Assembly: GCA_934668375.1 (NCBI GenBank)
Contig: CAKUNF010000001.1
Span: 1-64,000, forward strand
Source: an uncultured Parolsenella sp.
GTDB lineage: Bacteria > Actinomycetota > Coriobacteriia > Coriobacteriales > Atopobiaceae
Reading direction: 5' to 3'
Length of the DNA: 64,000 nucleotides
Program-made: the position numbers and the translations under genes
Part shown: in pieces, positions 18,994 to 39,250 of the stretch
How positions within the stretch are numbered: the first letter of the stretch is position 1
How the letters are laid out: the number at the start of each line of letters is the position of its first letter
Notes under the pieces: model-generated
Seen by the model: the letters and a program-made list of their open reading frames with translations, nothing else
What the model was told of the DNA's origin: nothing
Database searches by the model: none

Positions 18994-19070
18994 ACCAAGA
19001 ACCAACGAGGACTCGCCGTGCCACTGACTTGCAGTCCACGGGACTGGGCCCAGATGGGCCAACCGTTTTT

Positions 19071-19097
19071 GGGTGTCCGGCTCTGGCCGGGCACCCC
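19071..19097 (+). other. Strong hairpin between Sel1 gene and next gene
   Basis: GGGTG-t-CCGG, loop, CCGG-g-CACCC forms a 9-bp stem with one mismatch, just upstream of the gene starting at 19116. It lacks a following T-run; a T-run precedes it (19065-19070). It could be a weak bidirectional terminator or a leader hairpin. Confidence 0.45.
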
Positions 19098-19115
19098 ACT
19101 TGATTGGAGCGAAGG

Positions 19116-20411: not shown

Positions 20412-20460
20412 GAGCTTGCTGTCGTGCCAAAGTGAAGGCACATTTTCTTTAACAAGAAGA

Positions 20461-20529
20461 GTGTAAAATCATCAATGAAATAGGTATAAAATCATAAATG
20501 AAATCGGTGTAAAACCATAAACGTCGAGA
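20461..20529 (+). repeat. Three tandem 23-bp AT-rich direct repeats
   Basis: Exact period of 23 bases: 20461-20483, 20484-20506, 20507-20529. Each unit begins GTGTAAAATCATAAATG or a close variant; the third diverges at its end. The block is far richer in A+T than the surrounding DNA and lies immediately upstream of the ATPase gene at 20549. It resembles iteron or operator arrays. There are no spacers, so it is not CRISPR. Confidence 0.9.
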
Positions 20530-20548
20530 TGAATAGCGGTGAACAACC

Positions 20549-21844
20549 ATGAAGCAAGTCAAGAGATTGGTTCAGGAAGGTTATCGCCCTCGTCTTATTG
20601 AGCACAGATTAGACACGCTCATGCAAGCTTTTGGCTGCGTTGAGATCAACGGTCCCAAATGGTGCGGGAAGACCTGGACAGCTCTCTCTCGTGCCGTAAG
20701 CGTGACAAGGCTCGACGAGCCGTCGGAGCGAGAGGCTGCCGAGATTGACCCTGCACTCGCTTTGGTTGGCGAGACACCTCATCTGGTTGACGAATGGCAA
20801 GAAGTCCCGGGGGTGTGGGACGCGGCGAGGCGCTTTGTGGACGCAAGCGGGAACCAACGAGGGACCCTTCTCCTCACCGGGTCGACCTCGCTTTCAAAAG
20901 GCGAGCGCGATGCCGTGAGGCACACGGGTACGGGCAGAATCGCACGTCTGACCATGCGCCCCATGGCTTTGTGCGAATCTGGGGATAGCGAACCCACGGT
21001 CTCGCTTGCCGATCTATTTGATGGCAAGACGATGGTTCCAGCGCGAACGGAGAACTCGATCATCGACGTTGCTCGCTGGTGTTGCAGGGGTGGCTGGCCC
21101 GCCAATCTCGAGCTGGCCAATGAGCTCGCCTACGAGACTACGAACCAATATGTCCAGTCCGTCCTTGACGTCAATGTCGTCGAAGAGGGGAAGTCTCCAG
21201 AGTTGGCGATGGCTCTGCTCCGCTCTCTCGCCTTGAACGAGAGCCAGGCGGTTACGTACAAGACCCTTGAAAAGGATGCTTCGTATGGTGAGAAGGGGCC
21301 TGGTGAGGCGACTATCAAGTCCTATCTTGACCTATTCGAAAGACTTAAGCTCATCGAGAATCTATATGGTTGGGAGCCACCCATGCGCTCAAAGGCGAGG
21401 GTGCGCGTGAAGCCCAAGCGGTACTTTTGCGACCCATCTCTTGCTGCAGCACTGCTGGGGGCAACTCCCGAGCGCTTGCTGTTTGATACCCAGACGCTTG
21501 GAATGCTGTTCGAAAACTTGGTCGTTCGAGACATCAGAACGTTCGTCTCGACGTATTCCGGTTTGGGCAACAACGTCTACTACTATCGAGACGATAAGGG
21601 GCTCGAGGTCGATGTCGTCGTTGAGTGTAAGGGCCGATGGGGCGCTCTTGAGGTCAAGCTGAGCGACGCGAAGGCAGATGAGGGCGCGAGAAATCTCAAG
21701 GCTCTCGAGCGAAAGGTCCTGTCCAACCCGGCAGCTCGGAATGCCAAGCCCGCTTTTTTGGCCGTCGTGGTAGGGAAGGGCAGCCTTACCTACATGCGAG
21801 ACGACGGTGTTGCCGTTATTCCCATGGCGCTACTGGGGGCGTAG
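20549..21844 (+). CDS. AAA ATPase with DUF4143 (ATP-binding protein of the COG1373 type)
   Basis: A 431-residue predicted ATPase. The Walker A motif is GPKWCGKTWTA at about residue 34 and the Walker B-like motif is PHLVDEWQEVPGVWDAAR near 78. The sensor-like LLLTGSTSLSK follows. The C-terminal half has the DUF4143 arrangement, with a winged-helix-like middle (TIKSYLDLFERLKLIENLYGW) and then LGMLFENLVVRDIRTF and EVDVVVECKGRWGALEVKLS, which resembles the PD-(D/E)XK-like end of this family. The biological role of the family is unknown. It has three 23-bp repeats directly upstream. Codon use is less GC-biased than the core genes, suggesting transfer. Confidence 0.85.
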   Translation: MKQVKRLVQEGYRPRLIEHRLDTLMQAFGCVEINGPKWCGKTWTALSRAVSVTRLDEPSEREAAEIDPALALVGETPHLVDEWQEVPGVWDAARRFVDASGNQRGTLLLTGSTSLSKGERDAVRHTGTGRIARLTMRPMALCESGDSEPTVSLADLFDGKTMVPARTENSIIDVARWCCRGGWPANLELANELAYETTNQYVQSVLDVNVVEEGKSPELAMALLRSLALNESQAVTYKTLEKDASYGEKGPGEATIKSYLDLFERLKLIENLYGWEPPMRSKARVRVKPKRYFCDPSLAAALLGATPERLLFDTQTLGMLFENLVVRDIRTFVSTYSGLGNNVYYYRDDKGLEVDVVVECKGRWGALEVKLSDAKADEGARNLKALERKVLSNPAARNAKPAFLAVVVGKGSLTYMRDDGVAVIPMALLGA

Positions 21845-21867
21845 TCCTGCCAGCAGATTGCTCCGGT

Positions 21868-22251
21868 CTAGTCCGTGCCCTCTCCACCAGGCAGGATGTA
21901 GACGTTCTCGCGGTCCACGGCGAGGCGCGAGGGCTCGTTGTGCAGGGCGCTCACGGTCTCGAGACAGGCCGAGAACGGCGTGAGGTCAGGAACCTTGGCG
22001 GCCGCGAGCCTTGCCGTGAGGCCGTCGGAGATCTTGCCGTTGAGGTGCTCGAGCCCCTTGCCCGCGCCCTCGAGCGCCTCGTCGATGAGCGTGTAATCGC
22101 CTACGGGCGTGGCGGCAACGGCCTTGCCCAGCCGCTTGTCCGCGCTCGCGATGCCGCCGAGCACGATGGCGTCAACGGAGTTGGCCGTGCTTGCCTCCAG
22201 GGCGTCGCAGCAGAAGTGGAGCCCATCAATGACCGAGAACATCCGAGGCAT
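21868..22251 (-). CDS. Hypothetical protein
   Basis: A 127-residue frame that follows the CpXC gene on the minus strand, overlapping its 3' end by 26 bases, so it is probably its operon partner. The N-terminus (MFSVIDGLHFCCDALEASTA) is followed by Gly/Ala-rich helical sequence. No known domain, signal peptide or clear membrane helix was seen. The start at 22251 is uncertain; 22242 is an alternative. It resembles helper or immunity-sized proteins only in size and position. Confidence 0.5.
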   Translation of the reverse strand: MPRMFSVIDGLHFCCDALEASTANSVDAIVLGGIASADKRLGKAVAATPVGDYTLIDEALEGAGKGLEHLNGKISDGLTARLAAAKVPDLTPFSACLETVSALHNEPSRLAVDRENVYILPGGEGTD

Positions 22252-23977
22252 GATATGCCCACGTGCGGTCAACGTAGAGTGGCTGCTCGTTGGCCAAGTC
22301 ACTTGCGGAAATCTCGTTTACGAACAACTCGTATCCACCGCGTGGCACGTCTGCAACGAATGAACGACCGCTCTTAAACGTGAGCCTGACCTGTATCGTA
22401 TCCGCGTCCGCTGCGACAAACCTTGCTTTGTAACCAGGCGCCTCCGAACCGATTCCCTGCGTGAGCGCTTGCCCAGCAACGCCGAGCTTGAGAAGCTCAA
22501 TGGCGCGGTCATCCAGGCCGGCTGCGATGATGGCGACTTTTTCCTGGAACTCTTCTCTGCTTCGCACAATTCGCCTGTTGCTGCCTCCGGGGCCCTGTTC
22601 GCCATCGTCCTCAGCAAGACCGAGAAACATCTCTTCTGCCTGTTCGCGCATTTGCTCGCTTACCACGTGATAGATGCAAACGCGATGGCTTGGGTCGAGG
22701 TAGAGACATGGATGCTCTAGGTGGGCTGTGTATCCACAGGAGTCACAGGTGAATTTGCAGTATGAACCGTCAACAATGCCATCAACGAGGTTGGGGTCAT
22801 CCTGGGCGTTGACCTTGGTCCAGGCAGAGAAGTCCATGCGCCTCCCACATCCTGGACACGTGATCTTGACGGTGTCCTGCTCGGACTCGCCCCAGGGGTT
22901 TTCCTTGGGCAGCATCGAGTAGGATGCCTTGCGCTTGGCAGTGATACCGTTCTCATCTGCCCAGGCGTCGAGCTCGGTGGGACCCGTGCCCCAGAAGTCA
23001 ACGGTGTCTGCTTCGCCTGCAAGCGCGCGTGCGGCCATGCCGGTGGGGTCTTCGAGAATCTCCCAGCGGGATGGATCGCAAGGATAGAGGTACGAGGTGG
23101 TTTCCTCGTCGTCAATGACGCCCTCGTAGATGGGATGAGCCGGCGAACAGGGCCAATAGTAGCAACGCCCGGGCGTGAGTCCGCGATGACCCACTGGCTG
23201 GTTGCCCGTGTAGCGCACGACGGACCAGTATTCCTTCGCATTCGCTTGGTCCATGAGTTCTATTACGTCCAACACGGCATCGGCGAGCTCGGGACTCTTC
23301 GTCCTGTACTTGTCTGCATAGCCAGAGAGCCTGCCAAAGAACTCCTCATAGCTCTTGCAGTCAAAGGGCATGATGTTGACCTTGACGTTCTCTCTGTCCT
23401 TCTCGGCCGCCTCTGAGAGCAAATCCTGCAACGCCATGAGCTCGATGGGATAAGAGAACACCTCGCCTCTGTTCTCGCGCGAGTGGGGGAGGAGGTCATA
23501 CTTCTGATGCCATTCGGGGATGTAGGGTGCCTCGGTGAGGTCTTGCGGACGGTGGCTGTGCGCCACCTGCTTGCGTACCTCGTTGCGAAGGGGACCATTC
23601 GGTAGCTTTTCGTATAGGCCACGTGCGAGATATCCCATGCGAAGGAACTCGCATACATCCATCCAGGTGAAAATCTGCTCGTCTTCTGTCACGCGGCCGA
23701 CCCTGCGGACGACTTGAACACCCATGAGCGTTAAAAAGTCCGTACCAAGTGGCCGGAAGTCCGTATCGCATTCTATGCCCTCGAGGAAGCATCCCTCATG
23801 CTCGCCTTCCACGGGTGGCACGGCGCCGGTCAGGAACAGCAGCAGGCCCTCGTCAGTCTCAATGACATCCTCGGTGTGATAGATCGCCTTCTGACGTCGC
23901 GCCAGCTCCTTTGGAGGCAGGCTGGCATAGCGCCCGTCTGTCCAACGCCAGTAGTTCTCGTCCCCGTGGTTGCTCAT
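22226..23977 (-). CDS. CpXC-domain protein
   Basis: A 583-residue protein with a zinc-ribbon CpXC domain from about residue 370. There, ITCPGCGRRMDFSAWTKVNA and FTCDSCGYTAHLEHPCLYLD supply the paired CxxC ligands and the typical nucleic-acid or metal-binding ribbon. The first 350 residues (beginning MSNHGDENYWRWTDGRYASL) match nothing I recognise; they contain Trp/Tyr-rich segments such as DVCEFLRMGYLARGLYEKL. No membrane segment is apparent. The start at 23977 is supported by AAGGGAG on the minus strand. It is divergent from the defence locus and ends in an overlapping small gene. Confidence 0.7.
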   Translation of the reverse strand: MSNHGDENYWRWTDGRYASLPPKELARRQKAIYHTEDVIETDEGLLLFLTGAVPPVEGEHEGCFLEGIECDTDFRPLGTDFLTLMGVQVVRRVGRVTEDEQIFTWMDVCEFLRMGYLARGLYEKLPNGPLRNEVRKQVAHSHRPQDLTEAPYIPEWHQKYDLLPHSRENRGEVFSYPIELMALQDLLSEAAEKDRENVKVNIMPFDCKSYEEFFGRLSGYADKYRTKSPELADAVLDVIELMDQANAKEYWSVVRYTGNQPVGHRGLTPGRCYYWPCSPAHPIYEGVIDDEETTSYLYPCDPSRWEILEDPTGMAARALAGEADTVDFWGTGPTELDAWADENGITAKRKASYSMLPKENPWGESEQDTVKITCPGCGRRMDFSAWTKVNAQDDPNLVDGIVDGSYCKFTCDSCGYTAHLEHPCLYLDPSHRVCIYHVVSEQMREQAEEMFLGLAEDDGEQGPGGSNRRIVRSREEFQEKVAIIAAGLDDRAIELLKLGVAGQALTQGIGSEAPGYKARFVAADADTIQVRLTFKSGRSFVADVPRGGYELFVNEISASDLANEQPLYVDRTWAYHASDVLGH

Positions 23978-24135
23978 GGTGACTCCCTTTGCGACATTCG
24001 ATAGTACCTATGAACGGAGTGTAGAGGCCATTGCGGACAATAAAGGAATCCATATAGCGGCTCGGGAGCGCCTTTGTCTCAGGGGCTGGAATCCGGGCTC
24101 GTGGCGCAAATACGGGAGCGATACTCATGCTCTGC

Positions 24136-24141
24136 TAATAT
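24136..24141 (+). promoter_or_regulatory. Candidate extended -10 upstream of the defence locus
   Basis: TAATAT preceded by TG-C (TGC-TAATAT), about 100 bases before the helicase start in the divergent intergenic gap. No matching -35 hexamer was found, as is usual for extended -10 promoters. Confidence 0.3.
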
Positions 24142-24244
24142 GCGAGTGAGTTGAGCTTAGTTCAAATCGCGGCTAGACATGTGGGCCCACACATCCGTTT
24201 CGGGCCAGCTCCGCCGTGAACCTGTACAAGGAGGGCGGCAGTTC

Positions 24245-27200
24245 ATGCAGCCGGACTATTTCGATAACATGGCGCGCATCGTCAAAGACGACCTTGTGGC
24301 CAACGTCTCTGCCGGTGACAAGGTCTCCGTTGCCGCCTCCGTCTTCTCCATGTATGCCTACCAGGAGCTTAAGGAGCAACTTGAGGGCATCGATGAGTTT
24401 CGTTTCATCTTTACCTCGCAGGCGTTCACAAAGGAGCGCACCCCACGTGAGAAACGCGAGTTCTATATCCCGCGTCTGGCCCGCGAGCGGGGGCTCTGCG
24501 GCACCGAGTTCGAGATCAAGCTGCGTAACGAGCTCACGCAGAAGGCGGTTGCCGCCGAGTGCGCCGACTGGATACGTCGCAAGGCGCAGTTCCGCTCCTA
24601 TGAGGGCGAGGGCCAGCTGTCTGCTTTCATGGACGTCGAGAAGCCAACTGACATCGTTGCCTACATGCCCTTCGATGGCTTTACCACGCGAAAGCTTGGC
24701 TGCGACAACTCGGTGTCGACGCCCGATATGACCATGCGTCTGGATGTCTCGCAATCCCGCGCTCTGCTCCAGCAGTTCGATTCCGCCTGGAATTCCGGCG
24801 AGCTCCACGACGTGACCGATGCCGTTATCGATGGCGTAACGGCCATGTATCAGGAGAACGCACCCGAGCTCGTCTACTACATGGCGCTCTACCGCATATT
24901 CAGCGAGTTCTTAGACGACGTCTCCGAGGATGTGCTGCCCAACGAGGGGTTGGGATTCCGCGACAGCCTGATCTGGAACAAGCTCTACGACTTCCAGAAG
25001 GATGCGGCGCTTGCCATCATCAACAAGCTCGAGACGTACAACGGCTGCATCCTGGCCGACTCCGTGGGCCTGGGCAAGACGTTCACCGCTCTTGCCGTCA
25101 TCAAATACTATGAGAGCCGCAACAAGGACGTGCTCGTCCTGTGTCCCAAGAAGCTGCGGGACAACTGGATCACCTACAACTCCAACGTTGTGAACAACCC
25201 CATCGCCGGGGACCGCCTGCAGTACGACGTGCTCTACCACACCGACCTCTCGCGCACACGCGGCACGTCGGAGACGGGCCTTCCGCTCGACCGCCTTAAC
25301 TGGGGCGCGTACGGGCTCGTCGTCATCGACGAGAGCCACAACTTCCGCAACGGCGGCGATTCTGCCTCCGAGGACAAGATGAACCGCTACCAGCTCCTCA
25401 TGGAGAAGGTCATAAAGCAGGGCGTCAAGACCAAGGTGCTCATGCTTTCCGCCACTCCGGTGAACAACCGCTTCCGTGACCTTCGCAACCAGCTTGCCCT
25501 GGCCTACTGGGGCGATCCCACGGGGTGGTCGGAGAAGCTCCACCTGGAGAACGACATCGAGACGGTGTTCCGCAACGCACAGGCTGTTTACTCCCGCTGG
25601 TCAAAGCTCCCGCCCGAGCAGCGCACCACCAACGCCCTCACCGACATGCTCGACTTCGACTTCTTCGAGGTGCTCGACCAGGTGACTGTGGCGCGCAGCC
25701 GCAAGCACATCCAGCGCTACTACGACATGAGCGCAATCGGACCCTTCCCGCGCCGTCTGCCCCCGATATCCAAACGCCCCAAGCTCTCCACGCTGCCGGA
25801 TACCATCAACTATCACGAGATTTACGAGGAGCTCGATTCCCTCGTGCTCGCCGTGTACATGCCCAGCGCCTATGTGCAGCCCAGCAAGATGGCCAAATAC
25901 GTTGAGAAGGGCGGTGGCGGCAACCTCACGCTCGGCGGGCGAGAGACGGGCGTTCGCCGTCTCATGACGGCAAACCTCCTCAAGCGCCTGGAGAGCTCCG
26001 TGTGCTCGTTCCGCCTGACGCTCGAACGCGTGCTGGCCGTCATGAACGACGCCCTCAAGACCATTGACGACTACCGCAGCGGTCTTGCGGCCGGGGCCAG
26101 CGTGGCTGACGGCGACCTGCCCAGCGGGTTTGACTTCGATCCGGACGATGAGGGCGGCTTTGAGGTGGGCGGTGCCACGAAGATCCTTATCGAGGACATG
26201 GACTGGATGAGCTGGGAGCGCGATATCAAGGCAGATGCGGATATCGTCGAGGTCCTCATTGCCATGGTCTGTGACATCGACCCCGCTCATGATGCCAAGC
26301 TCATCGAGCTGTGCGAACAAATCCGCGACAAGGTGCGCAACCCCATCAACCCGGGCAACCGCAAGGTGCTCGTGTTCACCGCGTTCTCGGACACTGCCGA
26401 CTACCTCTACGAGAACGTCTCTGCATTTGCGGCACGCGAGCTTGGCCTTGAGTGTGCCAAGGTCACGGGCGACGGCTGTGCCTGCACCATCGACGTCGTC
26501 CCGCCTCATATGCCCGAGATCCTCGCCTGCTTCTCGCCCGTGTCCAAGGAGCGGGATATGGTGGCTCCGCAGCTCGGAGGCTGCAACGTGGACATCGTGA
26601 TCGCCACTGACTGCATCTCCGAGGGCCAAAACCTCCAGGACTGCGACTACCTCGTGAACTATGACATCCACTGGAACCCTGTGCGTATCGTGCAGCGCTT
26701 TGGCCGCGTGGACCGCATCGGCTCCAAAAACGCCTGCATACAGCTCGTCAACTACTGGCCAGACGTAGAGCTGGACGAGTACATAAAGCTCAAGGCGCGC
26801 GTTGAGGAGCGCATGCGCATAACCGTGATGACCTCCACGGGCGATGACGACTACATCAACGCCGGGGAGACGGGAGACCTTGAGTATCGCCGTCAGCAGC
26901 TCGAGCAGATGCACAACGAGGTCATTGACCTGGAGGACGTCTCGGGCGGCGTGTCCATCACGGACCTGGGGCTCAATGAGTTCCGCATGGACCTCGTGGG
27001 CTACTACCGCGATAACCCCGGAATCGATCGGCTTCCCTCGGGCATCAATGCCGTCGTGGAGGGCGATGAGCCTGGCGTCATCTTCGTGCTGAGGAACGTG
27101 AACGCCAAGGTTGATCGCGACGGCAGAAACCATCTGCACCCGTTCTACGTCGTGCACATGGGTGCCGATGGATCCGTTGTTCATGGGCATCTGGAGCCCA

Positions 27201-27478
27201 AGGCGGTGCTCGACGACATGCGTCTGCTCTGCCGTGGAAAGACCGAGCCCAACATGGCCCTGTGCCGTGCATACAATCGCGAGACAAAGAGCGGCCGAGA
27301 CATGCGGCGCGAGGCCAAGCTTCTGCGGGATGCGGTGGCATCGATCATCGACTCCAAGGAGGAGTCTGACGTCGACAGCTTCTTTGGTGGCGGCACAACG
27401 GGCTATTTGGAGAATGACATCGAGGGGCTCGACGACTTTGAGCTCGTATGCTTCCTGGTGGTGAGACCCAGATGCTAG
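24245..27478 (+). CDS. SNF2-like helicase with degenerate PLD-like N-terminal domain (defence-associated)
   Basis: A 1077-residue superfamily 2 helicase. The N-terminal ~200 residues (VSVAASVFSMYAYQELKEQL, EFRFIFTSQAFTKER, DGFTTRKLGCDNS) look like a phospholipase D-type domain, but no HxKxxxxD motif is visible, so it may bind rather than cut. Helicase motifs: Walker A ILADSVGLGKTFTA (about 268-281), VVIDESHNFRN (about 361), VLMLSATPVNN, and IVQRFGRVDRIGS (about 814). Such RapA/HepA-like motors move on double-stranded DNA. The start at 24245 follows AAGGAGGG; an in-frame ATG at 24179 has no site. It overlaps the DUF4391 gene, placing it at the head of a four-gene defence operon with Mod and Res. 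Confidence 0.85.
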   Translation: MQPDYFDNMARIVKDDLVANVSAGDKVSVAASVFSMYAYQELKEQLEGIDEFRFIFTSQAFTKERTPREKREFYIPRLARERGLCGTEFEIKLRNELTQKAVAAECADWIRRKAQFRSYEGEGQLSAFMDVEKPTDIVAYMPFDGFTTRKLGCDNSVSTPDMTMRLDVSQSRALLQQFDSAWNSGELHDVTDAVIDGVTAMYQENAPELVYYMALYRIFSEFLDDVSEDVLPNEGLGFRDSLIWNKLYDFQKDAALAIINKLETYNGCILADSVGLGKTFTALAVIKYYESRNKDVLVLCPKKLRDNWITYNSNVVNNPIAGDRLQYDVLYHTDLSRTRGTSETGLPLDRLNWGAYGLVVIDESHNFRNGGDSASEDKMNRYQLLMEKVIKQGVKTKVLMLSATPVNNRFRDLRNQLALAYWGDPTGWSEKLHLENDIETVFRNAQAVYSRWSKLPPEQRTTNALTDMLDFDFFEVLDQVTVARSRKHIQRYYDMSAIGPFPRRLPPISKRPKLSTLPDTINYHEIYEELDSLVLAVYMPSAYVQPSKMAKYVEKGGGGNLTLGGRETGVRRLMTANLLKRLESSVCSFRLTLERVLAVMNDALKTIDDYRSGLAAGASVADGDLPSGFDFDPDDEGGFEVGGATKILIEDMDWMSWERDIKADADIVEVLIAMVCDIDPAHDAKLIELCEQIRDKVRNPINPGNRKVLVFTAFSDTADYLYENVSAFAARELGLECAKVTGDGCACTIDVVPPHMPEILACFSPVSKERDMVAPQLGGCNVDIVIATDCISEGQNLQDCDYLVNYDIHWNPVRIVQRFGRVDRIGSKNACIQLVNYWPDVELDEYIKLKARVEERMRITVMTSTGDDDYINAGETGDLEYRRQQLEQMHNEVIDLEDVSGGVSITDLGLNEFRMDLVGYYRDNPGIDRLPSGINAVVEGDEPGVIFVLRNVNAKVDRDGRNHLHPFYVVHMGADGSVVHGHLEPKAVLDDMRLLCRGKTEPNMALCRAYNRETKSGRDMRREAKLLRDAVASIIDSKEESDVDSFFGGGTTGYLENDIEGLDDFELVCFLVVRPRC

Positions 27479-28089
27479 GGCTGCCAAGCACAACGGAGGT
27501 GGGCCGGCGCATTCCCAAGGAGGCCTTCTACGGGCACCTGAAGGTCAATGCTGCCCTTCGACAGAGCTTCGTTGAGGACGTCGAGCGCTTCACAGTGACC
27601 AATTCGATCAAGAACGCTACGACGGGCATTCCCGACGGTGAGCGCGTCCATGAGGTGCTCGTGCTTGAGGTCGCGCTCAAGGCGCGCAAGGTCCCCGAGG
27701 ACGTACTCGCGTGCGTGGCGCGGGCCAACCCACACAAGCTGCTGTTTGTTTGCGCATTTGGGGACGAGGCGTGCCTGGCCGTGATGCTCAAAGACCTTGT
27801 TATTGGTCCGTGGCGGAGCGTGGATGGCCTTACACTTGACGTACGTGCAGCGAGTATCGACGCGATGTGGGATTCGTTGGCCTCGCAAGTTGCCTACGGT
27901 GACATCGGCAGCGGCGTGTCTGTCGAGGAGCGGTTCGAGGCGGATACCAAGCTCGAGGCCCTGCGCAAGGAGCTGGCTCGCATCGAGGCTCGTGGGCGTA
28001 AGGAGCGGCAGGTGGCACGCAAGAACGCGCTGTTCGAGCAAGCAAAGAGTCTCAAACGGCAGATTGCCGACATCGAGAAGGGCAGATAG
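27472..28089 (+). CDS. DUF4391 domain protein
   Basis: A 205-residue protein with the DUF4391 pattern: MLGLPSTTEVGRRIPKEAFY, then FTVTNSIKNATTGIPDGERV, HEVLVLEVALKARKVPEDVL and ANPHKLLFVCAFGDEACLAV. The last 50 residues form a charged predicted coiled coil (LEALRKELARIEARGRKERQ). Its function is unknown; genes of this family are typically found between a helicase and a type III-like methyltransferase. It overlaps the helicase stop by 7 bases and is followed with no gap by the mod start codon, so it is surely part of the operon. Confidence 0.8.
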   Translation: MLGLPSTTEVGRRIPKEAFYGHLKVNAALRQSFVEDVERFTVTNSIKNATTGIPDGERVHEVLVLEVALKARKVPEDVLACVARANPHKLLFVCAFGDEACLAVMLKDLVIGPWRSVDGLTLDVRAASIDAMWDSLASQVAYGDIGSGVSVEERFEADTKLEALRKELARIEARGRKERQVARKNALFEQAKSLKRQIADIEKGR

Positions 28090-30136
28090 ATGGACAAGAT
28101 TGAACTGGGCACGTCTGATGGCGTAGCTGAGAACGTGGAGCGCTTGGGTGAGCTGTTTCCGCAGGTAGTTACCGAGGTCGAGAATTCAACCGGGGGGGGG
28201 CGTTCATAAGGCGATAGACTTTGACGCCCTGCGTGACCTCCTGGGCGACGTTGCCGAGGATGGGCGAGAGCGCTATCAGTTCACCTGGCCGGGCAAGCGC
28301 GAGGCCAAGGCAGAGGCGCGTCGTCCCATCTACAAGACGATGATTCCCGAGCCGGTCAAGTCAAAGGACTGGGACACCACCGAGAACCTCTACATCGAGG
28401 GCGACAACCTTGACGCACTGAAGATCCTGAAGGAGACCTACGCCGGCAAGGTGAAGCTCATCTACATCGATCCGCCCTACAACACGGGTCACGACTTCGT
28501 CTACGACGACGATTTCGCTAAGACGCGCGGGGAATATGATGCCGAGAGCGGCGAATACGATGAGGAGGGCGGCCGCCTGGTCGCTAACACCGAGGGCAAC
28601 GGTCGGTTCCATTCGGACTGGTGCTCGATGATGTATCCGAGGCTGCTGCTGGCACGTGATTTGCTGGCGGTCGATGGCGCCATCTTTATCAGCATTGATG
28701 ACAATGAGAGCGCTAACCTTCGCAAGGTTTGCGACGAGGTGTTTGGCGGCGCTTGCTTTGTCGGGGATATCGCTTGGCAGAAGACGTATTCGCCGAGGAA
28801 TGACTCCAAGGGCATTCCTGCTGAAGTCGAACATGTCATCGTGTGCTCAAAGAGTCCCAGTTGGACTCCGAGAAGACTGCCTCGAACTGCAGAGATGGAC
28901 GAGCGTTATTCGAGTCCAGATGGGGATCCACGACCGTGGTCTTCGGGCGATGCCGCAGCCCCTGGCGCAGCTACTCACCAAGGAATGGTTTACGCTATTC
29001 AGCATCCCATCACTGGAGAGCTGCTGTACCCGCCGAACGGACGATGCCGTCCGTTCGGCGGGTACAGCATGCTCGAAATAATGAGTGGGTGGGCTGAATA
29101 CGAGTTCAAGAACATACACGATGAAGTACGTCGTGCGGAAATATGTGGCATCTCTCCTGATGAAGTCAGAAAAGACGTCGATGCAATTGTTTTAAAAAAT
29201 CCGTGTGAGGAAACGTATGCGGCCGCGCAACGTAGATATGACGCTGGTAATTGGCCACGACTCTATTTCACTGGTGGCGGCAAGGGCGGAATGCGTCTAA
29301 AGCGTTATCTCGACACCATGGAAGGCAAGATGCCTACTAATCTCTGGCCCTACTCAGAGGTCGGCCATACCGACGAGGCTAAGAAGCAGCTCAAGGCCCT
29401 CTTCGACGGTTCCGCGCCCTTTGATACGCCCAAACCGGTCCGTCTCATGAGGCGTATTCTCGACATCGCTTCTTCTGAGGATTGCGTCGTACTCGACTTC
29501 TTCTCTGGCTCGGCCTCCATGGCGCAGGCCGTCATGGAGAAGAACGCCGAGGACGGCGGCAACCGTCGCTTCGTGCTCGTTCAGATTCCCGAGGAGACGT
29601 CTGGCCAGTTCTCAACGCTGACCGAGGTTGGTGAGGAGCGCATCCGCCGCGCGGGCGCGAAGATCGCCGCCGAGATTGACAAGGAAAACGAGCAGCTCGA
29701 GCTCGGTGCTAAGCCCAAGCCCTACCCTGACCTTGGCTTCCGCGTGCTGCGCATCGACTCCTCGAACTTCAAGGACTCCTATCTCACGCCCGGGCAGACC
29801 GAGCAGGCGAACCTCTTTGACTACGTCGATAACGTGAAGGAGGGCCGCACGGACCTGGACCTGCTGTTCGAGGTACTGCCCAAGCTGGGCATTCCCTACT
29901 CGGCAAAGATCGAGGAACGCATGCTTGCGGGCAAGAAGGTCTTCTTCGTGGACGACGATAAGCTTGCCGCCTGCTTCGATGTGAACGTTGGCTCCGACAC
30001 CATCGAGGAGATGGCAAAGGCCAAGCCGTGGTATGCCGTCATCCGCGACGCCTCCATGGCAGACGACGCCACGCACGCGAACTACGAGGAGCTCTTCCGC
30101 ACCTACAGTCCCGACACCGTTCCCCAAGTGATCTAA
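28090..30136 (+). CDS. Type III DNA methyltransferase Mod, phase-variable and OFF by frameshift in a G9 tract
   Basis: Beta-class adenine or cytosine N-methyltransferase of type III restriction systems. From the ATG at 28090 the frame reads MDKIELGTSDGVAENVERLG and stops at 28209, just after nine consecutive Gs (28192-28200). Removing one G joins it in frame to VHKAIDFDALRDLLGDVAED and the rest of Mod, giving 681 residues. Motifs follow the beta order: YIDPPYNTGHDFVY first, target-recognition region in the middle, then LDFFSGSASMAQAVM (motif I) and FVLVQIPEE. ATG 28340 is the next in-frame start but has no ribosome site and would lose a conserved N-terminus. The middle is locally richer in A+T. 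Either a true phase switch or a homopolymer read error explains the break. Confidence 0.88.
28192..28200 (+). repeat. Poly-G (G9) tract within mod
   Basis: Nine Gs at codons 35-37 of mod. Eight (or five, or eleven) restore the full reading frame; nine gives a stop at 28207-28209. Slippage at such tracts is the usual basis of phase variation. Confidence 0.9.
29023..29068. repeat. 21-bp perfect inverted repeat inside mod
   Basis: Arms at 29023-29043 (starting GCTGTACCCG) and 29048-29068 (ending CGGGTACAGC), spaced by 4 bases. It lies in the middle, target-recognition part of Mod and encodes the segment LLYPPNGRCRPFGGYS. Confidence 0.85.
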
Positions 30137-30145
30137 GGCGCCAGC

Positions 30146-33100
30146 ATGAAGTTCAAGTTCAAAGTGCAGCAGTACCAGACCGACGCCGCAGATGCTGTGA
30201 CCTCGGTCTTTGAGGGACAATCCAACCAGGGTGCCTCCGTCTACCTGCGCGACCTGGGACGCAAGCCCAAGCGCGCGCAGGGCGAGCTCGATTTTGGCGA
30301 CGAGAGCACGGAGGGCTATGCCAACGCGCCCGTTGTGCTCTCGCCAGACGCGCTCCTGGCAAACGTCCGGGCTGTTCAGCGTCGCAACCAGATTCCTGAG
30401 TCTGCGGAGCTCTTCATTGGCATGGGCGCCTGCCAGCTGGATGTGGAGATGGAGACGGGCACTGGCAAGACCTATGTCTACACCAAGACGATGTTTGAGC
30501 TCAACCGCCTGTACGGCTGGTGCAAGTTCATCGTGGTGGTGCCGAGCGTGGCCATTCGCGAGGGTGTGAACAAGAGCCTGGAGAACACCCAGGAGCACTT
30601 TTTCTCCCAGTACCACAAGAAGATCAGGTTCTTCATCTATGACTCCGACAACCTCACGGAGCTGGACGCCTATGCGCAGTCGAGCGACATCAACTGCATG
30701 ATCATCAACATGCAGGCGTTCAACGCCTCGATGAAGGAGGGCGCCAAGAACAAGGCGGCACGTATCATCTTTGACGAGCGCGACGAGTTCGGTAGCCGCA
30801 GGCCCATCGACGTCATCGCGGCCACCCGGCCGATCGTCATCACCGACGAGCCGCAGAAGATGGGCAAGAAGGGGAGCGCCACCTGGAAGGGCATCGCGCG
30901 CTTCAACCCGCTGTTCGTCCTGTCCTACTCGGCCACGCACAAGGAGAAGCACGACCTTGTGTACGCGCTGGACGCACTGGATGCCTACAACCAGAAACTC
31001 GTGAAGCGCATCGAGGTCAAGGGCTTCTCGCTCAAGAACATGCGCGGCACCGACGGCTACCTCTACCTGCGCGATATCGTTGTGAGCAAGAGCCGCGCCC
31101 CTGAGGCCGTTATCGAGTTCAAGTACATGGGCGCGGGTGGCAAGGTTCGCAAGAAGACCCAGCGTTTCTGCGAGGGTGACAGCATCTACGACGTAAGCGG
31201 GTCCACCAAGCTCGAGGTGTATCGTGGCTACACCATCGCGAGCGGCAACGATGGCGTGGTGCCGCCGCAGGACGGACGCCCCGGGTACGTTCGCTTCCTG
31301 GACAGCTCTATCGGCGACAACGGCCGCATCTACATGGGTGAGGTCTACTGCGACTCCGCGGCGGACGACATCCAGCGCATCCAGATTCGCGAGACCATCA
31401 AGAGCCATCTCCAGAAGGAGGAGGCCCTGTTCCGCCGCGGCATCAAGTGCCTGACGCTGTTCTTTATCGATGAGGTGGCCAAGTATCGCGACCTCACCGG
31501 CAACGGCGAGACTGTGGGCTACGGCAAGATCTTCGAGGAAGAATACGCGGCGGCCATTGTCGAGCGCGTGGCGCATCCTACCACGGACGATGCGTATGAC
31601 CCAAGCTATCTCAATTACCTGCGCCGCGATGACGCCCATGCGGTTCACAGCGGCTACTTCTCGGTGGATAAGAAGGGCAACACCGTTGAGTCCAAGGCCG
31701 AGAAGAAGGCCGAGCGCGAGGATGGCATCGGCATCAACGACGACGACGCGCGGCGCGGCTACGACCTGATCCTGCGTGACAAGGAGAAGCTGCTCTCGTT
31801 CGACGAGCCCGTGCGCTTCATCTTCAGTCACTCGGCGCTTCGCGAGGGCTGGGACAACCCCAACATCTTCCAGATCTGCACGCTCAAGGAGTCGGGCTCC
31901 GAGACCTCCAAGCGCCAGGAGGTGGGCCGAGGCATGCGCCTTTCCGTTGACCAATGGGGCAACCGCCAGGATGCGGTTTTGCTGGGGCCCGATGAGGTGC
32001 ACCGCGTGAACCTGCTCACGGTCATTGCGTCTGAGAGCTATGAGACGTTTGTCCGCGACCTGCAGACCGACATCAGCAAGAGTCTGCGTGAGCGTCCCAA
32101 GAAGGTCGAGGCCCACCTGTTCAGCGGTGCCGACATCGTGGTTGATGGCCAGCCCGTGCTCTTTACCGAGTACGAGTCCAAGCGCGTCTACAAGGCCCTC
32201 TACAAGGCGGACTTTATCGACGAGGACGATAGGCCAACGGATACCTTCAGGGAAGCCGTGGACGCGGGGACGTTCGTTGAACAGTTCGTGCCAAAGCTGC
32301 CGGAGGACATCGCTGACGAGGCGCATGCCAAGGCGGTCGAATCCCTGGTGAGAAGCGTCTATGACGCCCATGCCCTCGACGGCATGATTGGCCGGGCCGA
32401 GGAAAAGGTAACGGAGAACTCGCTCACGGACAACTTCGCCAAGAGGGAGTTCAAGGAGCTGTGGAGCCGGATCAACCGCAAGCATGCCTACACCGTGAGC
32501 TTCTCTGACGACGAGCTGCGACGCAAGGCGATTGCGCGCATCAACAGCAACCTTCGCGTGAGCAAGCTCCAGTACGTGCTCACGATTGGCGGCCAGAAGG
32601 CCGAGGCGACTCGTGGAGAGGTCGAAGGCGGCTCGTCCTTTGGGCGTACGGGCACGGAGACGCATGACGTGGATGCGGGAACCTCCACCGTTGGTGTCAC
32701 GTATGACCTCGTTGGCGAGGTGGCTCAGGCGGCCGCCGTCACTCGCAGGAGCGCCGCCGCTATCCTCGCCGGAATTGACGCCAACGTCTTTAGGCTTTAT
32801 CGCGTTAATCCCGAGGAGTTCATCAAGAAGGCTGCCGCGCTCATCGTCTCCGAGAAGGCGACGATGGTCGTGGAACACATCAGCTACCACGAGATAGACG
32901 ATGCCTACGACGAAGCCATTTTTACTGAGCGCATGCCTGACAACGCAAGCAGGGCATACGAGGCCAAGAAGAACGTCCAGCGCTTCGTGTTCCCGGACTC
33001 TGACGGCGAGCGCAAGTTTGCCGAGGACATGGATGCCGCGGCTGAGGTTGCTGTCTATGCCAAGCTGCCGCGCACGTTCCAGATCCCCACGCCTGTTGGC

Positions 33101-33328
33101 AACTACGCGCCGGACTGGGCCATTGCCTTCAGGCAGGGCAGCGTGCGCCATGTGTTCTTCGTCGCCGAGACCAAGGGAACCATGGACTCGATGGAGCTTT
33201 CCGGCGTGGAGAACGCAAAGATTGCCTGCGCCAAGAAGCTCTTCAACGAGATGAGCACGAGCGATGTGCGCTACCACAACGTGGCGACCTACGACGATCT
33301 GCTTGAGGTCATGGGAAGGTTACCGTAG
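30146..33328 (+). CDS. Type III restriction enzyme Res subunit
   Basis: A 1060-residue helicase-nuclease that pairs with Mod. Helicase motifs: Walker A METGTGKTYVYTKTMFELNR (about residue 103), a DEPQ-type Walker B in IVITDEPQKMGKK (about 233), SATHKEKHDLVYALDA, and SHSALREGWDNPNIFQICTL with RQEVGRGMRL. The C-terminal nuclease motif is PDWAIAF ... FFVAETKGT (about residues 988-1010), the PD-(E)xK site of the type III family. Length is normal. It starts 9 bases after mod. It needs Mod for cutting, so the phase-OFF mod should also silence restriction. A hairpin follows the stop. Confidence 0.93.
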   Translation: MKFKFKVQQYQTDAADAVTSVFEGQSNQGASVYLRDLGRKPKRAQGELDFGDESTEGYANAPVVLSPDALLANVRAVQRRNQIPESAELFIGMGACQLDVEMETGTGKTYVYTKTMFELNRLYGWCKFIVVVPSVAIREGVNKSLENTQEHFFSQYHKKIRFFIYDSDNLTELDAYAQSSDINCMIINMQAFNASMKEGAKNKAARIIFDERDEFGSRRPIDVIAATRPIVITDEPQKMGKKGSATWKGIARFNPLFVLSYSATHKEKHDLVYALDALDAYNQKLVKRIEVKGFSLKNMRGTDGYLYLRDIVVSKSRAPEAVIEFKYMGAGGKVRKKTQRFCEGDSIYDVSGSTKLEVYRGYTIASGNDGVVPPQDGRPGYVRFLDSSIGDNGRIYMGEVYCDSAADDIQRIQIRETIKSHLQKEEALFRRGIKCLTLFFIDEVAKYRDLTGNGETVGYGKIFEEEYAAAIVERVAHPTTDDAYDPSYLNYLRRDDAHAVHSGYFSVDKKGNTVESKAEKKAEREDGIGINDDDARRGYDLILRDKEKLLSFDEPVRFIFSHSALREGWDNPNIFQICTLKESGSETSKRQEVGRGMRLSVDQWGNRQDAVLLGPDEVHRVNLLTVIASESYETFVRDLQTDISKSLRERPKKVEAHLFSGADIVVDGQPVLFTEYESKRVYKALYKADFIDEDDRPTDTFREAVDAGTFVEQFVPKLPEDIADEAHAKAVESLVRSVYDAHALDGMIGRAEEKVTENSLTDNFAKREFKELWSRINRKHAYTVSFSDDELRRKAIARINSNLRVSKLQYVLTIGGQKAEATRGEVEGGSSFGRTGTETHDVDAGTSTVGVTYDLVGEVAQAAAVTRRSAAAILAGIDANVFRLYRVNPEEFIKKAAALIVSEKATMVVEHISYHEIDDAYDEAIFTERMPDNASRAYEAKKNVQRFVFPDSDGERKFAEDMDAAAEVAVYAKLPRTFQIPTPVGNYAPDWAIAFRQGSVRHVFFVAETKGTMDSMELSGVENAKIACAKKLFNEMSTSDVRYHNVATYDDLLEVMGRLP

Positions 33329-33333
33329 GTAGT

Positions 33334-33367
33334 TGAGGGGCCGAAGCTTGGAAGCTTCGGCCCCTCA
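33334..33367 (+). terminator. Probable terminator after the defence operon
   Basis: Perfect inverted repeat TGAGGGGCCGAAGCTT/AAGCTTCGGCCCCTCA with a two-base loop, followed by GGGGTTT. It sits 6 bases after the res stop. The following T-run is short. Confidence 0.65.
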
Positions 33368-33415
33368 GGGGTTTACTAGGGCTGTGACAAGACCTCGAGG
33401 CGGTGCTGGCTGAGG

Positions 33416-34654
33416 CTATTCGACATGCTCGTTGTCTGTCTCGGAGACGTTGCGCATACCTTGACCGCAGAGCCTCTCGATCCTCTCTTGCTTCTCGAGA
33501 ATGAACCTCTTGTGGTAGAAGAGGTCGGCGATTTTAAGAACTTGACTCATTTGGGCCGTGTCGAACAATGCGCCGAAGCCGGCACCTACGAACGGGACCA
33601 TTTTCCCGATTGTCTTAAGAGATAGCTTTCTTCCAATTTGTGCGAGCGTTTTCTTGAAGATCCCCGCCTCGAGGGCCTTCTGCCCACCCTTTTCTAGGGC
33701 CTTCTGAGCGGCCCTGTTGGCCATAGCTCGCATCTGGGTAAGTACCAGCGCCGCTCCGCCCGACTCAATCATTGCTGTCCAGGTTTTTGCGGCAGCCTTC
33801 CTGACGCCGGCCATCTCCGTATAGACCAGAATCTTGCCGACGTAGTCATTCGCCGCCGTGTTCTCGGCGTTGGGAGACATGGCCTTTGAGAAGACCTCGC
33901 TCGAGATAACAAGTTCATCAGGATTGCTCTTCACGTCGTAGCCGTAGAAGAGCGCTACGGATTGGACCGCACGGAAGTAGATGAGCATGCTTAAAGCGAA
34001 GTTTGCCGGAAGTCCCCAGAATCCTGCGGCCCCAGTCCCGCCGCCTTCAACAGCTGCGATGCCGATATGTTGCAGATGCTCGTCGTTTGCGATGGCTGCG
34101 ACGTCGTATGAGCGCAGCATGCATATTTCAGAGATGTCGGAGACCTTTTGCTCCTGCTTACCGGAGTTGATCCTCTGGAGCACATACTCCTTGCTTACAC
34201 TTGCGCGCGCGGCGTGCTTCTCAAGCTCGCCAAAGCCCTCCGTGGCTTTCTTGATGGCGCCCGCAATGAGCTCTTGCTCGGTCAGCCCATTGAAGGTGTC
34301 CTTGACTGCATTCCCGGCCTTGCCCGCGATTTCTTTTACGGGCTGCGGAGTCTTCTCGATGATTGCCTTGCCTGCCTTAGCGATGGGGCCGGGGGCAAGA
34401 GCCTTCTCGTAGCGTTTCGTCAATGTGGCTATCTCTTCGTACTCTCGCTCATCTACGAGCGGGTCGGGAATCACGTAATTCCCCTCTTCGTTCTTTAACG
34501 TCCCGGCGAACTTGTCGCCATACTCACCGCCGAATGCCTGGTGGACCTGTTTTGCGCCTGCCCTGAGAGCGCCGAACCCCGCATTGGCGGCATCCGCAAA
34601 CCCGCGAAGCGCTGCCCCTGCCTTTGCGGGAGCAATCTTGTTCTGATTTTCCAT
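33416..34654 (-). CDS. EcsC family protein
   Basis: A 412-residue protein with an EcsC domain in its second half: HLQHIGIAAVEGGGTGAAGF, then WGLPANFALSMLIYFRAVQS and ALFYGYD. The N-terminal 140 residues are Ala/Lys/Gly-rich and probably disordered or helical. The C-terminus has KMVPFVGAGFGALFDTAQMS, typical of this family. EcsC proteins are of unclear function; some are linked to ABC exporters or to surface adhesion. A strong GAGGAGGACAGG site supports the start at 34654. It is convergent with the defence operon and stands alone. Confidence 0.8.
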   Translation of the reverse strand: MENQNKIAPAKAGAALRGFADAANAGFGALRAGAKQVHQAFGGEYGDKFAGTLKNEEGNYVIPDPLVDEREYEEIATLTKRYEKALAPGPIAKAGKAIIEKTPQPVKEIAGKAGNAVKDTFNGLTEQELIAGAIKKATEGFGELEKHAARASVSKEYVLQRINSGKQEQKVSDISEICMLRSYDVAAIANDEHLQHIGIAAVEGGGTGAAGFWGLPANFALSMLIYFRAVQSVALFYGYDVKSNPDELVISSEVFSKAMSPNAENTAANDYVGKILVYTEMAGVRKAAAKTWTAMIESGGAALVLTQMRAMANRAAQKALEKGGQKALEAGIFKKTLAQIGRKLSLKTIGKMVPFVGAGFGALFDTAQMSQVLKIADLFYHKRFILEKQERIERLCGQGMRNVSETDNEHVE

Positions 34655-34783
34655 CCTGTCCTCCTCGTTTTGGCCGTACCTCTTAACAGCGCATGTAAGA
34701 TTTGCGAGCCCATTCGTCTGGGATGGATTCTATATCTCCCTTGGAGCTCTAGTTTCAGCTACGAGCTGAGTCTGGGCGAGCGG

Positions 34784-34829
34784 TTGCACATCATCGTTCA
34801 TGGCTATAATGTACGGTGAATCGCCGTAC
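34784..34829 (+). promoter_or_regulatory. Promoter and palindromic operator of the DUF1778/GNAT module
   Basis: A perfect TATAAT (34805-34810) with TTGCAC (34784-34789) 15 bases upstream. It is immediately followed by the inverted repeat GTACGG-tgaatcg-CCGTAC (34811-34829). The operator lies over the expected transcription start, as in autoregulated toxin-antitoxin operons. Confidence 0.7.
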
Positions 34830-34846
34830 GTGAGAGGGGATGCAAG

Positions 34847-35125
34847 ATGGCGACGATCGCATCGAACAAGAAGAATGCCAGGCTCGACCTCCGCATGACC
34901 GCCGAGCAGAAGGAAGAAGTCGAGCTCGCTGCCAGCCTGAGCGGAATCAGCCTCTCCCAGTGGTCTCTTGAGAACCTTTTGGCTAACGCCCGGGAGGCTA
35001 TCGCCCGCAGCGGCCATACGGTGATGGCTCCGGCGGACTTTGATGCCTTTGTCGAAGCTTTGGATTCACCCATGAACCCAGATCTGAAGAAGTTCGTCTC
35101 TCAGAAGACTATGTGGGAGCAGTAA
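34847..35125 (+). CDS. DUF1778 antitoxin (TacA type)
   Basis: A 92-residue ribbon-helix-helix antitoxin. KKNARLDLRMTAEQKEEVEL is the DNA-binding strand and helix, and AASLSGISLSQWSLENLLAN continues the RHH fold. The C-terminal VEALDSPMNPDLKKF matches the toxin-binding segment of TacA-type proteins. It is followed 2 bases later by the GNAT toxin. The palindrome upstream is its likely autoregulatory operator. Confidence 0.88.
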   Translation: MATIASNKKNARLDLRMTAEQKEEVELAASLSGISLSQWSLENLLANAREAIARSGHTVMAPADFDAFVEALDSPMNPDLKKFVSQKTMWEQ

Positions 35126-35127
35126 CG

Positions 35128-35595
35128 ATGTTTACTGCGCCTAGAAGACTCGAGGATGCGGATGACCTTTCGGGATTCACTTGTGGCGAATCGGCAATAG
35201 ACTCGTGTCTGCAGAAGCATGCCCGCCATGCGTTCAGGCGCGGAACCGCGGTTGTCTACGTTACGTTTGATGACGAAGGCAGGCTTGCCGGGTTCTATAG
35301 CCTGTCTGCTCATTCGATGGATCGCAACGCCATGACGGGCTGGCTTGCGAGAAACGCCCCAGAGCAGGTTCCGGTGATTTTGCTGGGAATGCTTGGCGTG
35401 GGCTCCGCGCACCAGGGGGAGGGCCTGGGAAGGCAGCTCCTCCTTGATGCCTACCATCGTGCCAAGCAGGCTGCCGAGACTATCGGCGCCCGCGCGCTGG
35501 TCGTTGACCCGCTGAACGCTGGGAGTGCGGAGTTCTACACGCGTGTTGGATTCGAACAGGTCCCGGGGAGTGACGGGTTGTTTGCGAGGTTCTAG
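35128..35595 (+). CDS. GNAT acetyltransferase toxin (TacT type)
   Basis: A 155-residue GNAT protein paired with a DUF1778 antitoxin. Known family members acetylate the amino group of charged tRNAs and block translation. Features are FTCGESAIDSCLQKHARHAF, the acetyl-CoA loop GVGSAHQGEGLGRQLLLDAY, LVVDPLNAGSAEFYTRVGFE with the usual catalytic Tyr, and a final GLFARF. The start at 35128 follows GGGAG (35115-35119). Confidence 0.88.
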   Translation: MFTAPRRLEDADDLSGFTCGESAIDSCLQKHARHAFRRGTAVVYVTFDDEGRLAGFYSLSAHSMDRNAMTGWLARNAPEQVPVILLGMLGVGSAHQGEGLGRQLLLDAYHRAKQAAETIGARALVVDPLNAGSAEFYTRVGFEQVPGSDGLFARF

Positions 35596-35620
35596 GCAGG
35601 CGCCGCACCCCAACCACGCC

Positions 35621-35830
35621 CTACAGCTTCACCTGCCAAGTGTTGCCGCACTCGTGGCAGACGAAGGTGGTCTTTCCCCTCTTGCCGAGCATGGCGCCGC
35701 CCACGGCGCCGATTGGCCCGAGCAGCACGCCGCCCACGATGCCCTTCCCGAGCGACAGCGACTTCTTGCTCGACGCGACGGCCTCAAAGTTGAGGCTGCC
35801 GCACTTTGGGCACTTGATCTTCTTTCCCAT
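35621..35830 (-). CDS. Small zinc-ribbon/glycine-zipper protein
   Basis: A 69-residue protein with two CxxC pairs, KCPKCGSLNFEAV at the start and FVCHECGNTWQVKL at the end, forming one zinc ribbon. Between them lies a Gly-rich hydrophobic stretch (GKGIVGGVLLGPIGAVGGAM), which looks like a membrane hairpin or glycine zipper. Function unknown. GGGAGG on the minus strand supports the start. Confidence 0.75.
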   Translation of the reverse strand: MGKKIKCPKCGSLNFEAVASSKKSLSLGKGIVGGVLLGPIGAVGGAMLGKRGKTTFVCHECGNTWQVKL

Positions 35831-35967
35831 GGTCTTGCCTCCCGTCCTGCGCCCTCGGTGTGGGCGCCATTCCCGCCTCCATCTTAGTCCTTTGATTATC
35901 GAGCGGGGTCTCTTTGGGCCCGGGGGCTACGGCACCTTTGGGTCCGAGCCGTTGAGACATGAGGCTC

Positions 35968-35994
35968 GAATTTATCAGAATTCGGATATAATTC
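35968..35994 (+). promoter_or_regulatory. Operator-like palindrome with -10 before the Phd/RelE module
   Basis: GAATTTATC and GATATAATTC form an imperfect inverted repeat around AGAATTCG. The right arm contains TATAAT (35987-35992), 28 bases before the antitoxin start. No good -35 was found. Confidence 0.5.
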
Positions 35995-36019
35995 TCAGAG
36001 CTAAAAGGCTGGAGGCATC

Positions 36020-36295
36020 ATGAACATCAGACCCGTATCTGACCTTCGCAATCACTACTCGGACGTTGAGAGGGACGTTGAGACCAGCGGTCCCGTCTTT
36101 CTCACCAAGAACGGTCGAGGTTCGATGGTAGTGATGAGCTTTGACCAGTATCAGCGTGTCAATGACACCATTGAGCAGGCTCTCGATGCCGCAGACCGCC
36201 AGGCTCAAAGCATGCCTCTCCGCTACTCGCATGAGGAGGTCTTCGGCTCGGTGAGGGAGATGCTTGCCAATGTCGCCCCAGCCCAGTCGGTATAA
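36020..36295 (+). CDS. Phd/YefM family antitoxin
   Basis: A 91-residue antitoxin of the Phd/YefM family: MNIRPVSDLRNHYSDVERDV, then GPVFLTKNGRGSMVVMSFDQ and YQRVNDTIEQALDAA. The C-terminus contains the toxin-binding tail. Its last 26 bases overlap the toxin gene. GGCTGGAGGCATC provides the ribosome binding site. Confidence 0.9.
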   Translation: MNIRPVSDLRNHYSDVERDVETSGPVFLTKNGRGSMVVMSFDQYQRVNDTIEQALDAADRQAQSMPLRYSHEEVFGSVREMLANVAPAQSV

Positions 36296-36593
36296 GGTTC
36301 GCTACCTCCCTATCTTTTGGGAGGACCTCAGCGAGGCTGCCAGTTATATTGCGCTCGAGCTGGGAAACCCCGCCGCCGCCCAGCGTCTTGTGGACTCGGT
36401 TGAGGAGGGGATTCTCGATCATCTCGAGAATCCTACGATGGCATCGACATATCCCTCAACGCGGCATCGCCCAAAGCCGTACTACCGTTTTTGGGTTGGC
36501 AACTACATGGTGTTTTATGTTGTTGATGGCGATACGGTTGAAGTTCGCCGCCTTCTTTATCGCGCGCGAAATATCGAGTCGATCATTCGCTAG
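36270..36593 (+). CDS. RelE/ParE family toxin
   Basis: A 107-residue toxin with YKVRYLPIFWEDLSEAASYI at the N-terminus, NPAAAQRLVDSVEEGILDHL as the helical hairpin, and the strand YRFWVGNYMVFYVVDGDTVE followed by VRRLLYRARNIESII. That pattern is typical of ParE/YoeB-like proteins. The ATG at 36270 is chosen; a TTG at 36264 is possible. It forms a module with the Phd antitoxin. Confidence 0.87.
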   Translation: MSPQPSRYKVRYLPIFWEDLSEAASYIALELGNPAAAQRLVDSVEEGILDHLENPTMASTYPSTRHRPKPYYRFWVGNYMVFYVVDGDTVEVRRLLYRARNIESIIR

Positions 36594-36723
36594 CGCAGAC
36601 GCCTCTCTTTGGTTGGCGCGTCTCGGCTGTTGATGGCACGGACTCAAAGCGCTACGACTCCTTTGGATCTATTCCGAATCTATATCGATTCAAAATCCGA
36701 ATCTGCGCAAGAAAGGAACCATC

Positions 36724-37233: not shown

Positions 37234-37353
37234 GGACACCGCCGCCACTGTTCGCTCGTCCTTTCGCCGATGTTCGTATTTACGTACCTCGCCTTTCTTG
37301 CGGCTCCCGCCTAGGTTTGAGGCATGGGAAGTCCTGCGAGAGAGGAGTGCACC

Positions 37354-39231: not shown

Positions 39232-39250
39232 CGGCGCTGTGGAGTGGGGA

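Follow-up and report, generated by a model that had tools for sequence, protein, structure and literature searches.

A nine-guanine tract in a type III methyltransferase gene of a gut coriobacterium: a probable phase switch whose site appears to move among related operons

In the stretch of DNA that was analysed (64,000 nucleotides, hereafter the window), the mod gene of a predicted type III restriction-modification system is broken after codon 34 by nine consecutive Gs. The locus raises the question of whether this gene is lost, wrongly assembled, or a switch that was sequenced in its OFF position. It stands third in a plus-strand operon ordered Snf2-type helicase, DUF4391 gene, type III mod and res. 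The features on which the argument draws are the following:

18005-36710, no strand assigned: approximate variable island, of which the sister genomes G076 and G077 match only small patches
24179-27478, plus strand: Snf2-type helicase, first gene of the operon (PADLOC HKD+Snf2, E 2.1e-105)
27448-28089, plus strand: DUF4391 gene, whose stop codon abuts the mod ATG
28090-28209, plus strand: 5' part of mod as it stands, comprising 34 codons, the tract and a stop, TAA 28207-28209
28192-28200, plus strand: G9 tract, the proposed slippage site and the only G or C run of at least 8 in the 64-kb window
28340-30136, plus strand: larger part of mod, 598 aa when counted from the earliest start listed, with an N6_N4_Mtase domain, DPPY and FFSGSAS
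30146-33328, plus strand: res, 1060 aa, open throughout, with ResIII plus RE_endonuc

The 598-aa Mod and 1060-aa Res ORFs were both found to match type III families over most of their length. Specifically, Mod matched PF01555 with 107.1 bits and PADLOC MTase_III with an E value of 1.3e-170, while Res matched ResIII (49.5 bits) and RE_endonuc (101.6 bits), both over their cut-offs, and PADLOC REase_III (E 4.2e-269). The catalytic motifs DPPYNTG and FFSGSAS could be read in the Mod ORF, and we take these to be what are called the DPPY and FxGxG-like motifs. Overall, with a methylase domain and motifs in Mod and an adjoining Res, the pair is a predicted type III restriction-modification system. 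The start of the helicase is more likely ATG 24245. Assignment of this helicase to DISARM or to Dpd was rejected (DrmD scored 122.1 bits, below its cut-off of 610, and DpdE 86.5 bits, below its cut-off of 500), and its BREX-type match was partial (BrxHI, E 2.2e-24, with a best stretch of just 57 residues).

Translation from ATG 28090 gave 39 residues, MDKIELGTSDGVAENVERLGELFPQVVTEVENSTGGGRS, followed by TAA 28207-28209, and the start at 28090, the G9 tract at 28192-28200 and the stop at 28207 given in a preliminary description of this DNA were confirmed at the same coordinates. Two of the three frames 3' of the tract close at 28207-28209 and 28215-28217, and the third continues for 644 codons until the Mod stop at 30134-30136. 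A simple-sequence repeat within the mod ORF thus sets its frame, and the motifs named above are read in the 644-codon frame. Examination of all runs in the window yielded 131 G runs of length 4, 34 of length 5, one each of lengths 6 and 7, none of length 8 and one of length 9, with a longest C run of 6. The G9 tract is an outlier against this distribution. Composition by itself (G = 0.317) predicts about 1.4 runs of at least nine Gs on one strand, so that the run taken alone is weak evidence; the case is built instead on the position of the tract, the intact remainder of mod and the relatives.

We consider it highly probable that the G9 tract is a contingency locus, at which a type III mod is switched by slippage and which was caught OFF in the window. 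Replication slippage would alter the length of the tract. In one length class modulo 3 (ON), the two parts of mod would be read through as a methyltransferase of 681 codons; in both remaining classes (OFF), to which nine Gs belong, translation would terminate at the third or the fifth codon past the tract. A type III Res depends on Mod, so that a cell in the OFF state would give up modification and restriction together. The dependence of Res on Mod had also been put forward in the preliminary description, and it agrees with passages of a study of EcoP1 and EcoP15, in which recognition resides in Mod and the level of Res is increased by it (PMC3874151). Slippage in vivo, its reversibility, the loss of methylation in the OFF state and any change of expression are what we infer from the sequence.

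In order to place the tract among related proteins, we drew on a protein search that gave 7593 matches at E <= 1e-100, 120 of them listed, and on a second search from P0034 that listed 31 more; the N-termini of all 151 listed Mod relatives were read. Nine full-length Mods (681 aa) among these 151 carry GGG in a loop at the site of the window tract (P0009, P0010, P0013, P0016, P0017, P0020, P0022, P0034 and P0040), and P0048 has GG in the same loop. P0011 (652 aa) begins MKILRGGGIRK and shares 646 of its 652 residues with P0010, P0016 and P0020. A single DNA string satisfies both readings, VENPA in one frame and a start codon plus KILR in the adjacent one. The tract lengths implied by it are 10 Gs for the PAGGGIRK alleles, 11 for P0011 and, if its codons are the same as those of the PAGGGIRK alleles, 7 for P0048. 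By implication, P0011 would be the same gene put out of frame by an additional G. This near-identical pair of implied 10-G and 11-G alleles, 87% identical to the window Mod at the protein level, would be the nearest approach to an observed variation in length.

P0011 was predicted from a single contig of 4962 bases, and could stem from an assembly error. P0008 (628 aa, identical to P0010 at 623 of 628 residues) starts past the tract and may or may not be an out-of-frame allele too. Lengths below 670 aa were found for 12 of the 151 listed proteins, P0011 being the only one of them in which the tract shows; the breaks in P0003 and P0093 seem to lie at other sites, so frameshifts in such assemblies are not limited to the tract and assembly errors are possible. 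The same concern applies to the window itself, since homopolymers are error-prone: the true tract might be in frame and fixed and mod simply ON, a reading with which the intact Mod N-terminus and missing tract of most of the closest operons would agree. We nevertheless judge such an assembly or consensus error to be very unlikely, as correction of a single base would still leave 8 or 10 Gs, itself an outlier in the window, and as glycine-loop homologues with implied 7, 10 and 11 Gs exist.

A scan of genome contigs for mod, in which the best 80 of 151 relatives were kept, yielded 79 loci, and a tract of at least 8 was found within mod plus 300 bases upstream in seven of them (L006, L012, L017, L037, L043, L045 and L067). 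In Bifidobacterium, C8 in L012 and C10 in L017 directly follow the ATG, and both genes are out of frame. The Bacteroidales loci L043 (in frame) and L045 (out of frame) have their tract in the same loop as the window, that of L043 sitting in a second mod 3' of the first. The L067 tract lies in a leader fused to mod and that of L006 further inside mod, both out of frame, and L037, from genome G011, has G10 inside mod near the FxGxG region, in frame and at a site unlike the window's. Among 189 Bifidobacteriaceae genomes, nine contained such a mod, at ten loci, and five of the ten loci carried a tract of at least 8 in the gene or at its start:

L224: C10
L225: C9
L228: C8
L229: G8
L233: G10

Two of these five were counted in both surveys, L224 being the L017 gene and L228 the L012 gene. 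The mods of L224 (C10, out of frame) and L225 (C9, in frame), which share 79% identity, carry the tract at one and the same position. Seven surveyed genomes (G001, G002, G006, G011, G012, G013 and G214) have a helicase with 89-90% identity to that of the window, and of these only G011 has a tract of at least 8 in the operon. Tracts were weakly enriched in the operon relative to its flanks (20 in 380 kb vs 3 in 188 kb; Fisher p = 0.046). Overall, some relatives carry a tract at the start of mod, in its N-terminal loop, in its interior or in a leader before the helicase. As to the check on tract length among relatives that had been suggested earlier, the implied 10 and 11 Gs and the C10/C9 pair would speak for variation, and the closest operons are mostly tract-free. 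A side observation concerns a second mod that shares a Bifidobacterium locus with the first (L233, genome G457, and position 9293 of L012). It carries G10 towards its 3' end, where the ORF ends right at the tract (521 aa), and Mod homology continues to 9708 of L012.

The central proposal of the preliminary description, a type III mod made phase-variable by a G tract and OFF in this sequence, is supported by the frames (two closing within five codons after the tract and the third open for 644), the glycine-loop homologues, the implied allele P0011 with its additional G, the recurrence of tracts in relatives, and the precedent of G-tract slippage in the pili of a gut actinobacterium, B. breve. 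What counts against it is that six of the seven operons with the closest helicases are tract-free and that the tract of G011 is elsewhere and in frame. That description left out the place of mod as third gene of the operon and the other tract sites of some relatives.

It could also be supposed that an unneeded restriction-modification system has undergone a one-way inactivation. Such systems are often lost, and this one lies inside a variable island. The Mod and Res ORFs, however, contain no stop codon over their 5.0 kb, which makes an old pseudogene unlikely, the lesion falls exactly at the slippage tract, and the tract-bearing genes of relatives occur both in and out of frame; we therefore hold fixed loss to be slightly less probable still than a sequence error. 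Least credible is a leaky rather than an OFF gene, in which some Mod would be made with nine Gs, either by slippage of the polymerase or the ribosome along the run or by a start at ATG 28340 (the earliest ATG, GTG or TTG of the listed Mod ORF). In its favour, the 598-aa ORF is open from there, P0057, P0081 and P0092 are annotated as 598 aa among the proteins listed, and recoding at frame transitions is known from passages of PMC3711429. Against it, database annotation is not expression, and no Shine-Dalgarno-like sequence was seen by eye before 28340. The relative P0034 aligns to 6k0w and 4zcf (EcoP15I Mod), and its alignment to a solved Mod covers residues 43 onward, so that a start at 28340 would leave out a conserved stretch.

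A slipping mod is one of the two forms that we propose for this operon; the other was seen in relatives, upstream of the helicase. The helicase was searched in three Coriobacteriia families and found in 31 of 140, 9 of 65 and 23 of 138 genomes. It is at least 57% identical to that of the window in 39 genomes, in 36 of which DUF4391 adjoins it, the contig ending at the helicase in the other three. Fourteen of the 39 genomes have 9-11 Gs in a tract located 37-152 bp upstream of the helicase match:

Genomes with a tract-bearing leader: G009, G010, G014, G016, G017, G018, G106, G108, G109, G121, G320, G322, G364, G383
Loci with a tract-bearing leader: L015, L025, L066, L074, L078, L184-L186, L188, L190-L192, L197, L198

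The other 25 have no G or C run of at least 7 within 1500 bases of the helicase, as far as the contig reaches, and such a run was present in none of the 24 loci examined, of 27, from a more distant helicase group (44-48% identity, no DUF4391 found). Genome G017 has a second tract, G12, farther upstream, and in L074 G12 and G11 occur in one region upstream of the helicase, at 1655 and 1796. The helicase start is itself preceded by G-rich sequence, so that the helicase may depend on coupling only in part. Twenty other G tracts, from G018, G076 and G009, were inspected for their context and open frames; L204 (G018) and L220 (G009) have similar elements, in which 11 or 9 Gs are followed by ttctcctRgMgtagaattgcgcg, with an ATG soon after.

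All 14 tracts sit in a short ORF, and in every case exactly one post-tract frame runs almost to the helicase start codon, ending 0, 1 or 3 nt short of it, and the two remaining frames stop 29-133 nt earlier. First-order Markov resampling of the same spacers expects 1.45 of 14, a comparison in which the 14 are not independent, as they comprise about five leader types. Leader starts were set to our likeliest choice; two are GTG, and G010 has a second candidate in another frame. By the chosen starts, eight of the 14 leaders are now in the coupled frame (G009, G010, G014, G018, G109, G121, G364 and G383) and six are not (G016, G017, G106, G108, G320 and G322). The leaders of G009 and G108 are the same but for one G (10 vs 9) and two bases beside the start codon. 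A leader of this kind was also found where the helicase is missing or reduced, in G004, G007 and G015; none of these leaders is read through to the next gene, and in G007 none of the three frames would allow it. Against a coding role of the leader peptide, the one leader type tested showed no third-position bias: across seven leaders of this type, the variable columns after the tract numbered 12, 8 and 7 of 22 at codon positions 1, 2 and 3. Since the peptide of this type is unconserved as a protein, the role of the leader probably lies in where ribosomes stop and not in its product.

In the leader form, the tract would encode no part of any defence protein. A leader finished at the helicase start codon would permit translational coupling and turn the operon ON, and ribosomes stopping at the sites 29-133 nt upstream would leave it OFF, so that the leader would act as a phase switch for all four genes. 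As judged from these comparisons, we find it somewhat likely that a four-gene defence operon of gut Actinobacteria has repeatedly come under slippage control, with the site moving between mod and the leader, and with the leader tract switching the whole operon by coupling. Among the matches listed by our literature searches, we saw neither the same restriction-modification operon under slippage at different sites nor a leader ORF that couples to the first gene of its operon or not according to slippage. The leader and the moving site would thus be the more novel part of the proposal; they are drawn from relatives, and their functional step is what we infer.

The mod switch of the window itself belongs to an already known kind. 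As in known phase-variable type III mods, a simple repeat lies inside mod and its length class would decide between a full-length and a truncated Mod, and the target-recognition region is variable between otherwise similar Mods, a difference also seen here. The window departs from these systems in its host, a gut coriobacterium, in its gene order (helicase-DUF4391-mod-res, with mod in third place and res open), and in that some relatives of the operon have the tract elsewhere. EcoP15I-type systems share with it the alignment of P0034 to EcoP15I Mod and the helicase and endonuclease domains of Res; to our knowledge, EcoP15I has no repeat tract and no helicase-DUF4391 pair. Another kind of phase variation, by inversions at capsule genes, has reportedly been seen in a coriobacterium, Eggerthella lenta (PMC13174815).

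Passages of published work supply further points of comparison. A poly-G tract in a type III methyltransferase gene is described in H. pylori (in a part of PMC12003011), and S. suis modS was called the first phasevarion of its type in a Gram-positive organism (2021; in a portion of PMC8125046). In B. breve, slippage of a G tract switches sortase-dependent pili (passages of PMC9187656). According to those passages, the likeness extends to a G tract (9 to 12 reported) in a gut actinobacterium, there in the first gene of the operon, one length class of which joins two ORFs; the differences are that pili are not a defence system and that variation in tract length was measured there, whereas the window is known from one sequence.

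Phase-variable restriction-modification has mainly been described in pathogens, and gut coriobacteria fall outside that group. If the proposed switch is real, these bacteria would carry mixed populations with the system ON or OFF, with consequences for phage resistance, DNA uptake and methylation-dependent expression, and methylomes from single clones would be misleading. The leader form in relatives would amount to a compact switch for a whole operon.

The host had been described as a gut-type actinobacterium, with which the DNA comparison agrees: the nearest genomes by DNA over window 1209-3202 are G076 (94%) and G077 (93%), which are in the same family as G009, a Thermophilibacter. These sisters match the window in long flanking stretches at 82-91% identity outside the island, within which only 21890-22119 (in G076) and 35620-35852 (in G077) are matched. 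Window 17403-18004 matches the sister genomes at 74-77% only, and 37235-39651 is also unmatched. GC content is about 56-62% in the island, 67-68% directly to its left and 63-64% directly to its right. The mod locus is absent from both sisters, and no second copy from the same species was found. A megablast comparison of window 22000-34700 with plasmid and phage collections gave no match, and viral contigs yielded four distant relatives, 34-41% identical.

Three minor observations concern this region and its sisters. Window 29018-29074, in the target-recognition region of mod, is a near-perfect inverted repeat that encodes LLYPPNGRCRPFGGYSML, with a fold of -55.2 kcal/mol (z -10.85). L005 and L006 share it, with synonymous changes that match on both arms, and from these three DNA examples it may be either a template-switch mutation or a retained hairpin. 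Very long, clustered G runs occur in G077 at C1:1500675-1500757. Lastly, the island also encodes an ATPase with DUF4143 (PADLOC candidate PDC-S01), a CpXC protein and an EcsC-family protein.
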